Shown: positions 26,998 to 39,883 of the stretch, one piece after another
Layout of the letters: every line of letters starts with the position of its first letter
Position numbering within the stretch: the stretch's first letter is position 1
Source of the DNA: Candidatus Nitrosotenuis chungbukensis
GTDB taxonomy: Archaea; Thermoproteota; Nitrososphaeria; Nitrososphaerales; Nitrosopumilaceae
Assembly: GCF_000685395.1 (NCBI RefSeq)
Contig: NZ_AVSQ01000020.1
Span: 63,396-127,395 of the forward strand
Reading direction: 5' to 3'
Length of the DNA: 64,000 nt
Translations under genes and position numbers: made by a program
The notes under the pieces: model-generated
The model's input: only the letters and a program-made list of their open reading frames with translations
Told to the model about the DNA's origin: nothing
Databases searched by the model: none

Positions 26998-27125
26998 GTC
27001 TAAGTCTCAAAATAGATCATGAATATCGTTTTCTTTCAGCATTATCACAATATTTTGCAGTGTCAGCATGCATTGTCGGGATAAAACACCGCTTGTTTCT
27101 CCGAAGGTTGACAGATCTGTCAGTA

Positions 27126-27156
27126 AAACTGGCAAAAATGTAAGCGCGACTTATAT
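27126..27156 (+). promoter_or_regulatory. shared promoter element, site 1
   Basis: AAACT-N2-CA-N4-TGTAAGCGC-GA-CTTATAT. The same element precedes 32765 and, on the minus strand, 37158; each ends 22 nt before an ATG. TTATAT is the TATA box, and AAGCGCGA lies at the BRE position. Confidence 0.8.
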
Positions 27157-27178
27157 CACAACATATCGATAGAACGTC

Positions 27179-27349
27179 ATGGGAATCATAAAAAAACTAA
27201 AAGATACTGCCGAGAAAGACGTTGAGAGAGGAATAGAGTTGGGCAAGCAAGGCGTCGAACTTGGTAAGCAAAACATCGAGAAAGGAATAGAATCGGGCAA
27301 GCAAAATATCAAGAAAGGAATCGAACGTGGCAAAAAAAGCCTCGAGTAG
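27179..27349 (+). CDS. 56-aa amphipathic repeat protein
   Basis: Starts at an ATG 22 nt after the shared promoter element. After M-G-I-I-K-K-L-K-D-T-A, it is made of degenerate 7- and 11-residue units (VERGIELGKQG, IEKGIESGKQN, IKKGIERGKKS), giving a Lys/Glu/Gly helix. No Cys, no membrane segment. It is reminiscent of stress-linked, intrinsically helical proteins, but no family is assigned. Co-control with the Dps-like ferritin suggests a stress role. The start MGII(K/S)K(L/I)K also opens the protein at 37426. Confidence 0.7.
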   Translation: MGIIKKLKDTAEKDVERGIELGKQGVELGKQNIEKGIESGKQNIKKGIERGKKSLE

Positions 27350-31827: not shown

Positions 31828-32697
31828 ATGCCATCATGTGATATACTTGTAAGTGACCAACTTCAACATAGGTGGGAAACCAATACGTTAGATTCAGTCA
31901 ATGGAATAAACATCTACTACAATGAAACAGGCAAGGGTAGATCTTTGCCAGTACTTTTGATACACGGATTTCCATTTAGTTCCGAAATGTGGAAAGCACA
32001 GGTAGCAGCGTTACAAGAAAACGGCTTTTACGTCATAGACTATGATCTTCGAGGACACGGTCAGAGCGGCATTGGCGATGGGCAGTACACAGTTGAACTG
32101 TTTGTTGATGATTTGATGGCATTATTGGATCATCTGGGAATAACAAAGGCAGTCGTTTGCGGGTTTTCAATGGGAGGATATGTCGCACTTCGAGCCATCG
32201 AAAGGAATCCGGAGCGCTTTGGCGCCCTGATTTTGTGCGACACCACGTCATCGGCAGATTCAAACGAGGCAAAGATCAAACGTGCCGCCTCAATCAAACT
32301 AATAAAAAAAGATGGAGTAAGGTCATTTGCAGAAGGCTTCCTAAAAGCAGTCTTTTATGAGCAGAGTTTTAGCACAAAGCAGAATGCAGTAGAGAGCGTA
32401 AGGAAAATAATTCTGTCAAATTCTATAACCGGTATTTGTGGAGCATTGCTTGCGATGGCATCAAGAACAGACACCACAGAAGCCCTTTCTAAAATCAGTG
32501 TTCCGACACTTGTATTGGTAGGTGAATACGATACTATCACGCCGCCGGCTGCAGCCAAGGCAATGCACGACAGGATTCAGAATTCCAAGATGCACATAAT
32601 TGCAAATGCTGCACACATGAGCAGCATGGAAAACCCCAATGAGTTTAATGAACATTTTATCAAATTTCTAAAAAACCTGAATATACTCACAGACTGA
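31828..32697 (+). CDS. alpha/beta hydrolase
   Basis: A protein of 289 residues. The oxyanion-hole region HGFPFSSEMWKAQ, DLRGHGQSG, nucleophile Ser in CGFSMGGYVALRA, Asp in VGEYDTITPPAAA, and His in NAAHMSSMENP form the triad. It resembles 3-oxoadipate enol-lactonase/esterase types, but the substrate is not set. ATG at 31828 is used; a TTG five codons earlier is possible. Confidence 0.9.
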   Translation: MPSCDILVSDQLQHRWETNTLDSVNGINIYYNETGKGRSLPVLLIHGFPFSSEMWKAQVAALQENGFYVIDYDLRGHGQSGIGDGQYTVELFVDDLMALLDHLGITKAVVCGFSMGGYVALRAIERNPERFGALILCDTTSSADSNEAKIKRAASIKLIKKDGVRSFAEGFLKAVFYEQSFSTKQNAVESVRKIILSNSITGICGALLAMASRTDTTEALSKISVPTLVLVGEYDTITPPAAAKAMHDRIQNSKMHIIANAAHMSSMENPNEFNEHFIKFLKNLNILTD

Positions 32698-32711
32698 CAA
32701 ATCCGTCCATT

Positions 32712-32742
32712 AAACTTACACCGATGTAAGCGCAGCTTAATA
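32712..32742 (+). promoter_or_regulatory. shared promoter element, site 2 (Dps-like gene)
   Basis: AAACT-TA-CA-CCGA-TGTAAGCGC-AG-CTTAATA, ending 22 nt before the ATG at 32765. CTTACA-CCGA-TGTAAG is a perfect 6-bp palindrome inside it, likely an operator half-pair next to the TATA box. Confidence 0.85.
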
Positions 32743-32764: not shown

Positions 32765-32797
32765 ATGATCAAAACACATCAAAACGTAGGTATCTAA
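32765..32797 (+). CDS. 10-codon upstream ORF of the Dps-like gene
   Basis: ATG-ATC-AAA-ACA-CAT-CAA-AAC-GTA-GGT-ATC-TAA; the TAA is directly followed by the ATG of the ferritin. The ATG is where transcription should start, judged by the 22-nt spacing of the other two promoters. It could drive coupled re-initiation or sense translation state. Confidence 0.5.
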   Translation: MIKTHQNVGI

Positions 32798-33361
32798 ATG
32801 TCAGGCAAGATCAAAGACAAAGTAGGAAAGCTTGCAGGGATTGAGGTTCTGGAAAAAAACGGCATAGATTTGGAGAAACTAAGAAAACTCATTGTGGCCG
32901 GCGTAGGGTCAGAATTTGCAACATATTACTACTATACAATACTGCGAATGCACTGTACAGGCCTAGACGGCGAAGGCATTAAAGAAATCGTTGAAGATGC
33001 CAGAATAGAGGATAGAAATCACTTTGAGGCCATGACGCCACGTCTATATGAGATTGGAGGAAGCCTGCCAAGAGACCTCAGAGAGTTTGCAAACATTGCT
33101 GGCTGTCCCGATGCATTTCTGCCAAAAAACTGGGAAGACATAGATGAGATTTTGAAAGTTCTCCTAGCCGCTGAAAAATGTGCAATTCATTCGTGGGGAG
33201 AAGTGTGCGACTATACTGTCGGCAAGGATCATCGAACATATGAAATTGCTCAGAGAATAATGGGAGAGGAGATAGAACACGAAGCTTGGTTTGTAGAACT
33301 CCTTTCAAAAAGGCCGTCAGGACACTTTAGAAGGGGAATAGTAGGACAGTCAGATTCCTAG
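32798..33361 (+). CDS. Dps-like (DPSL) ferritin protein
   Basis: 187 residues of ferritin-like four-helix bundle. Iron-site residues appear in [39 protein letters not shown] and [14 protein letters not shown], and the Cys residues in these helices recall the thiol-bearing archaeal Dps-like group. It should form a shell that oxidises and stores iron, using peroxide. The control region carries the shared element, so it is probably stress-induced. The N-terminal 25 residues ([13 protein letters not shown]) are a basic extension. Confidence 0.88.
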
Positions 33362-33391: not shown

Positions 33392-33483
33392 TGGACCGAA
33401 TGGGATTCGAACCCATGACCTTTGCGGGATTTTCATCCATACGCAGTGTGAGTGCGTCATCCTAACCACTAGACAACCGGTCC
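33392..33483 (-). tRNA. tRNA-Val (CAC) with a 19-nt non-canonical intron
   Basis: Minus strand. Acceptor GGACCGG pairs with TCGGTCC (one G-U), D-stem GTCT/GGAT, anticodon stem ACGCA/TGCGT around loop CTCACAC (anticodon CAC), T-arm ATGGG-TTCGAAT-CCCAT, discriminator A. Between anticodon stem and T-arm are 24 nt rather than 5. Bases 33421-33439 fit an intron: central helix TGCG/CGCA, 3-nt bulges TAT and AAG, and inner hairpin GGAT-GAAA-ATCC. Removal restores the variable loop A-GGTC (position 44/45). CCA is not encoded. Confidence 0.9.
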
Positions 33484-36771: not shown

Positions 36772-37158
36772 TTAACAGGAGAGATTTCTATTCATCAATG
36801 GTGAACTTGTGTAGATGTCAAGCTTGCCTGCATCACATGTTCCACCCGTCAATCCATATCCTGCTGAATAATGGATAGTCGCTGAATAGGAATGCTGATT
36901 TGCCAATGTTATTGAATAGTTTCCTTCCTCATCCACGGTTGCAGAATTGACAGAGCCTGTATCGGATGTGAAATCTATGGTAAGTGGTGCCGTAGCAGGT
37001 CCTGTAGTTGAAGCACTACCGCTTACCGTCACAAAGGGAATTACAGTCTGAGTAATTTGTGGGACGGTGGTAATAACTGCAACTGCTATTAGGACTGCGG
37101 CTATAACGCCGACTCCTATACCAATAATACGTATCTTTTTTGTATTCGTAGTCATCAT
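36772..37158 (-). CDS. exported small protein under the shared promoter element
   Basis: 128 residues: one N-terminal membrane anchor (IGIGVGVIAAVLIAVAVITTV), then a beta-sandwich part (PLTIDFTSDTGSVNSATVDEEGNYSITL) that resembles carboxypeptidase-regulatory-like domains, and two Cys near the end (GGTCDAGK, RNLSC). ATG at 37158 lies 22 nt from the shared element. The function is unknown; its regulation links it to the ferritin. Confidence 0.65.
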   Translation of the reverse strand: MMTTNTKKIRIIGIGVGVIAAVLIAVAVITTVPQITQTVIPFVTVSGSASTTGPATAPLTIDFTSDTGSVNSATVDEEGNYSITLANQHSYSATIHYSAGYGLTGGTCDAGKLDIYTSSPLMNRNLSC

Positions 37159-37180: not shown

Positions 37181-37211
37181 TATTAAGCCGCGCTTACACT
37201 TGTGTTAGTTT
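37181..37211 (-). promoter_or_regulatory. shared promoter element, site 3
   Basis: Minus strand: AAACT-AA-CA-CAAG-TGTAAGCGC-GG-CTTAATA, ending 22 nt before ATG 37158, as at 27126 and 32712. Confidence 0.8.
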
Positions 37212-39809: not shown

Positions 39810-39883
39810 GCCAATGTAGCTCAGCCTGGCAGAGCATCTGATTTGTAATCAGATGGTCGAGGGTTCAAATCCCTTCATTGGCT
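39810..39883 (+). tRNA. tRNA-Thr (TGT)
   Basis: 74 nt, no intron. Acceptor GCCAATG/CATTGGC, anticodon stem TCTGA/TCAGA around TTTGTAA (anticodon TGT), T-arm GAGGG-TTCAAAT-CCCTT, discriminator T, which fits archaeal tRNA-Thr. CCA is not encoded. Confidence 0.96.

Follow-up and report, generated by a model that had tools for sequence, protein, structure and literature searches.

The window analysed here, a stretch of 64,000 nucleotides, carries three copies of a long promoter-like element. A pattern scan of the window for AAACT-N2-CA-N4-TGTAAGCGC-N2-CTTA returned exact matches at 27126 (+), 32712 (+) and 37211-37184 (-), the three places reported in an initial annotation of this DNA, and no fourth copy could be found in the window even when 6 mismatches were allowed. 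As had been described, 22 nt separate the end of each 31-bp stretch from an ATG (27179, 32765 and 37158), and CTTACA-CCGA-TGTAAG, located at the ferritin gene, forms a perfect palindrome. The element had been taken to span the BRE and TATA positions plus an upstream half-site. Its extent was underestimated: in all three copies it reaches ca. 17 bp further upstream and includes a second palindrome of the form TGACA-N4-(T/C)GTC(A/C) (27109-27122, 32695-32708 and 37228-37215). The sites and the genes behind them are composed as follows:

27109..27122, +, upstream unit of site 1, TGACAGATCTGTCA, a perfect 14-bp palindrome, assigned from its sequence and from the unit peak at -48
27130..27143, +, proximal unit of site 1, TGGCAAAAATGTAA, 21 bp downstream of the upstream unit
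27144..27156, +, core of site 1, GCGCGA-CTTATAT, BRE position and TATA-like sequence
27179..27349, +, 56-aa Lys/Glu/Gly repeat protein
32695..32708, +, upstream unit of site 2, TGACAAATCCGTCC
32716..32729, +, proximal unit of site 2, TTACACCGATGTAA
32730..32742, +, core of site 2, GCGCAG-CTTAATA
32765..32797, +, 10-codon upstream open reading frame (uORF) encoding MIKTHQNVGI, its TAA abutting the ferritin ATG
32798..33361, +, Dps-like ferritin (above the cut-off of NCBIfam NF040955, Arch_DPS; PDB 2clb)
36772..37158, -, probably exported protein of 128 aa whose N-terminal segment is hydrophobic
37181..37193, -, core of site 3, GCGCGG-CTTAATA
37194..37207, -, proximal unit of site 3, TAACACAAGTGTAA
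37215..37228, -, upstream unit of site 3, TGACAAACATGTCC

The 56-aa repeat protein has no match in Pfam or NCBIfam, and a paralogue elsewhere in the source genome (G000:C16:92152) likewise bears the element. The second gene does encode a Dps-like ferritin, as had been proposed: the protein scored 304 bits against the archaeal Dps equivalog model NF040955 (cut-off 250), matched PDB 2clb with an E value of 4e-79 and has close relatives that include a protein of a Nitrosotalea MAG. Its start, however, had been placed at the ATG at 32765, which opens the uORF; the ferritin ATG is at 32798. In five genomes (window 32765-32797; L068, L069, L070 and L071) a uORF of 10-11 codons precedes the ferritin gene, beginning at the position expected of a leaderless start and ending in a TAA that abuts the ferritin start codon, which in L071 is a TTG one base further on. 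As this arrangement is kept across the five genomes while the peptide sequences are not conserved, the data suggest a leaderless mini-ORF translationally coupled to ferritin. The third gene had been called an exported protein; its N-terminal hydrophobic segment makes export probable, and the product shows weak Ig-like/CarboxypepD_reg similarity. Two tRNA genes, at 33392-33483 (-) and 39810-39883 (+), are the sole Rfam matches in the window.

A genome-wide scan with a list of downstream genes, which had been recommended as a check, was carried out on the source genome (G000; 1.76 Mb, 24 contigs, 98% complete). At up to 3 mismatches, the element as first described gave 18 matches in the whole genome compared with 2 for the reversed pattern, while a core-weighted pattern and an upstream-palindrome pattern gave 17 and 11 matches, each with 0 reversed matches. 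Merging these sets and adding weaker sites read in stretches of the genome yielded ca. 21 sites. Most of the downstream genes encode exported proteins. Exported products comprise ice-binding-like proteins (PF11999; six by Pfam and a further two recognized from sequence), a right-handed beta-helix protein, a haemagglutinin-repeat protein and two Lys-rich repeat proteins. The other sites precede genes for two DUF922-like proteins (one of them a weak Pfam match), one histidine kinase, one winged-helix (wHTH) protein, the Dps-like ferritin, two small repeat proteins and the probably exported protein of 128 aa. We consider it very likely that the regulon is real in this soil-type ammonia-oxidizing archaeon. 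Since its targets are mainly exported ice-binding-like, beta-helix and repeat proteins, their common theme appears to be the cell surface, and we describe it as chiefly a surface regulon. The initial annotation had instead proposed an iron, peroxide or copper stress regulon served by one reader. A single reader agrees well with the number of sites, the functional coherence of the targets, conservation in other genera and a winged-helix family that co-occurs with the sites and is linked to them, but the stress assignment is not supported, and a regulon devoted mainly to iron-storage or antioxidant genes was rejected on account of the target list, in which one Dps-like ferritin stands among ca. 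21 targets, most of the others being exported surface proteins. The ferritin itself is a genuine regulon member: G076 and three further genomes have kept its site, and in L070 and L071 the ferritin gene adjoins a unit of wHTH gene, site and DUF922-like gene.

For a detailed view of promoter anatomy, 71 non-redundant sites from several genomes were aligned on the end of CTTAATA, giving the consensus acTgACAaAtttGTc.aT.AAact.ACAcaaatGTaAGCGcggCTTAATA. A 14-bp palindromic unit of the TGACA-N4-TGTCA type scored highly only at -69, -48 and -27, with the -69 unit present in a minority of the sites. These units follow each other in tandem with a 21-bp period and abut a conserved core, GCGCgg-CTTAATA. 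When the proximal unit was compared with upstream windows, identity was 0.56 at a lag of 21 and 0.18-0.38 at every other lag from 15 to 31, and at a lenient threshold two to four consecutive units were recognized in 62 of the 71 sites. Because 21 bp correspond to two turns of B-DNA, dimers bound to successive units would lie on the same side of the helix. The end of the proximal unit coincides with the expected start of the BRE (GCGCgg), with the TATA-like CTTAATA coming next, and the unit covers neither TATA nor the start site. Repeated palindromic sites at -27 and -48 are thus found directly upstream of the BRE at a fixed distance.

An ATG is located 20-26 nt after CTTAATA in 68% of the 71 sites, compared with 12% of random positions, and the remaining sites have theirs at other spacings, including 30-60 nt. 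The exact 22-nt spacing noted for the three window copies therefore stands for these copies and lies near the commonest spacing but is not a fixed rule. With the ATG so commonly found 20-26 nt past CTTAATA, many regulon mRNAs are probably leaderless, with transcripts starting at or near the start codon. Open frames of at least 150 codons fully enclose only 5 of the 71 sites; this speaks against random occurrence in coding DNA, which had been named as the observation that would undermine a regulon. An EM search of 122 non-regulon upstream regions for a generic TATA/BRE signal gave no clear motif. Cores of the type GTRAGCGCGnCTTA(A/T)TW were also seen with quite different upstream boxes ahead of exported proteins at L267 (G008), L272 (G123), L270 (G128) and L284 (G082), and the core of G113 is likewise joined to a different upstream box, a pattern that would fit the reuse of a single core promoter type with different operators.

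Among 151 genomes of the family Nitrosopumilaceae, the strict motif was detected in 11, representing five genera, with 0 control matches in all genomes. In the genus of the source genome, it was found only in G000 and G076 and in none of the 15 other sampled members; in the same-genus genomes lacking the motif, the core likewise does not rise above chance level. Across genera, the units and their 21-bp spacing are retained while flanks and genes are otherwise unrelated.

A small winged-helix protein, present in multiple copies, recurs in the site-bearing clusters and represents our candidate regulator; one copy in the source genome is encoded at G000:C16:73646-73894. Eleven aligned wHTH copies have a mean column identity of 73%. 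Two scores against HTH_45 (PF14947; 37.3 and 30.6 bits) are above the Pfam cut-off of 25.5, while the score against the NCBIfam Sso10a model NF053610 (36.8 bits) is below the cut-off of 60. An AlphaFold model of moderate confidence (pLDDT 73) shows the winged-helix order of elements, and Foldseek searches with this model returned generic winged helices, including ribosomal eS10, as best matches (E > 0.006). Sequence searches of the PDB gave only weak AspA/MarR matches.

In a profile search of the 151 genomes, wHTH was present (E <= 1e-20) in 10 of the 11 strict-motif genomes and in 11 of the 140 genomes without the strict motif (Fisher p = 2.9e-9, a value that overstates the significance since the genomes are phylogenetically related). 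True agreement is better than this table indicates because several genomes scored as negative by the strict pattern (G032, G065, G130 and G104) carry the motif beside their wHTH gene with slightly looser matching. Four further genomes outside the sample (G316, G321, G324 and G335) were found by the protein alone, and all four have the motif at up to 4 mismatches in the wHTH locus, compared with one match in 58 control loci (350 kb). The distance between a wHTH copy and a site is typically 27-68 bp, and in the source genome each of the six copies has a site beside it. A divergent copy in G113 is found next to a site with a changed unit (TGTACA-type) but the same 21-bp step and core, which looks like co-evolution. 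No recognizable site was found near the divergent copies in G073, G085, G144 and G050 or within the locus of the G057 copy L205, and G105 has one weak motif match and no wHTH match. Regulated surface genes often adjoin wHTH genes, and the linkage between wHTH and site could be the result of hitch-hiking with them. Overall, we consider it quite likely that the wHTH family reads the operator, activation and repression being taken together.

The best explanation of the data as a whole, to which we assign a probability of roughly two in three, is that the compound promoter is read by wHTH and serves to activate surface and envelope genes. Here, wHTH would bind the 14-bp units as dimers side by side, cooperatively and on one DNA face, and once bound would recruit TFB/TBP to the GCGCgg-CTTAATA core. 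Recruitment would switch on the ice-binding-like exported proteins, adhesin-like repeat proteins, DUF922-like proteins and the Dps-like ferritin together, and in some genomes wHTH may receive its input from a histidine kinase and a stand-alone receiver that are linked to it. Judged by the position of the operator, activation rather than repression is moderately likely, and TFB recruitment is favoured because the operator abuts the BRE as it does for TFB-RF1 and EarA.

The TFB-RF1 regulon of Pyrococcus furiosus (PMC5937170) resembles the present system in its palindrome (TCTG-N5-CAGA), which immediately precedes BRE/TATA at a fixed distance, in having a linked regulator gene that belongs to its own regulon and in being conserved across genera; TFB-RF1 is an activator that works by TFB recruitment. 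It differs in its motif and protein and has a single palindrome and two operons, whereas the system described here has two to four tandem units with a 21-bp period, ca. 21 targets and a multicopy candidate regulator. The EarA-controlled fla promoter of Methanococcus maripaludis (PMC5512572) similarly carries several short activator sites immediately upstream of the BRE and governs a surface structure, but consists of four 6-bp boxes of another motif at one promoter. By family, wHTH belongs with HTH_45, while Sso10a proteins are described as chromatin proteins and not as operator-specific regulators. In the literature searched, we found no operator-defined regulon in ammonia-oxidizing archaea. 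The regulon supplies a precise predicted binding site together with a list of genes and a named candidate for the regulator.

The same operator might alternatively be read by wHTH as a repressor that silences expensive surface genes. Position alone is compatible with repression, the NCBIfam match of wHTH is to the Sso10a group of chromatin proteins, and a silencing filament could nucleate on arrays of several units. Yet the proximal unit stops at the BRE, which is the position of an activator given that archaeal activators usually bind ahead of BRE/TATA while repressors usually bind inside the promoter or beyond it (PMC5937170), and a pure repressor site would not need a strongly conserved core, so that we regard repression as unlikely. 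Somewhat less likely again is a reader encoded elsewhere, such as a 95-aa HTH_45 protein (MSKQQYRSK...) or a global regulator, with the wHTH family being among the target genes. The 95-aa gene lies directly under a site in G147 (L179:3934-4221) and G057 (L181:6935-7222), and one wHTH gene in both G000 and G076 is itself under a site. However, the 95-aa gene was seen in these two genomes only, whereas wHTH is the only family observed next to sites in almost all motif genomes.

The element could also be the core promoter of a specialised TFB, or TFB/TBP pair, with the wHTH genes as mere neighbours. GCGCgg-CTTAATA is its most conserved part and occurs with other upstream boxes in G008, G123, G128 and G113; ammonia-oxidizing archaea encode 4-11 TFBs (PMC7554672), and TFB genes adjoin wHTH or its sites in four genomes from several genera (G075, G003, G324 and G100; L180:14452-15366, L208:1869-2762, L291:1-872 and L221:401-1315). 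A TFB would leave the 21-bp tandem palindromes reaching to -69 unexplained, and we consider this reading improbable. We rejected a dedicated TFB as the sole reader since no TFB orthologue tracks the motif across genomes: among 23 genomes searched, orthologues of the G075 TFB (73-84% identity) occur only in G130 and G098, the other motif genomes having only ca. 50% identical paralogues. The reader had originally been put down as one activator or TFB, and it is the activator-like single regulator that fits these results. A TFB preference for the GCGCgg-CTTAATA core may nevertheless add a second layer. That the repeats are mobile-element remnants or duplicated promoters devoid of regulatory function is barely credible, for although the sites at C14:42116 and C15:106 form a near-identical duplication and cassettes of wHTH gene, site and surface gene look duplicated, units and spacing have been kept across genera amid unrelated flanks and genes, and the sites are placed at gene starts.

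The nature of the regulon targets hints at a physiological role. In Ca. Nitrosotenuis chungbukensis, which belongs to the same archaeal family, genes for ice-binding-like proteins, the class shared with the regulon targets, are highly expressed in dilute medium and induced by low salinity, with no promoter element or regulator reported for them in the parts of that study available to us (PMC13037477). As the target class matches these low-salinity-induced surface proteins, the regulon may be an envelope response, possibly to low salinity.

Gene neighbourhoods make a two-component input plausible, though not universal. Histidine kinase, stand-alone receiver and wHTH are consecutive genes in G091 and G147, receiver and wHTH lie beside a kinase gene in G075, and in G057 kinase and receiver are each preceded by a site. 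The receiver subtype concerned (>240 bits) was found in only these four of the 151 genomes, all of them motif-bearing; below ca. 200 bits, a general receiver-domain search is uninformative as ordinary CheY-like proteins fill the list. The subtype is absent from the source genome, where the site at C20:20397 precedes a histidine kinase gene that has a receiver gene immediately upstream of it. How the many receiver-only response regulators of thaumarchaea act is an open question, most of them being in no conserved neighbourhood (PMC5847659); one receiver subtype here does have a neighbourhood, beside a candidate regulator and its sites. A full output path, in which the histidine kinase would signal via the stand-alone receiver to the small wHTH and on to the tandem 21-bp operator, the whole having spread as regulator-operator-surface-gene cassettes and the fixed GCGCgg-CTTAATA core being reused with other operators, is a tentative and on balance doubtful extension.

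Repeated cassettes of wHTH gene, site and surface gene were observed at L186 (G000:C16:68-74 kb), L183, L178 and L179, with three to four closely similar wHTH copies in one such stretch. A divergent wHTH copy of the source genome (G000:C19:13389-13568; L026:3357-3575; 97 bits) is shortened and possibly decaying, and lies beside a site.
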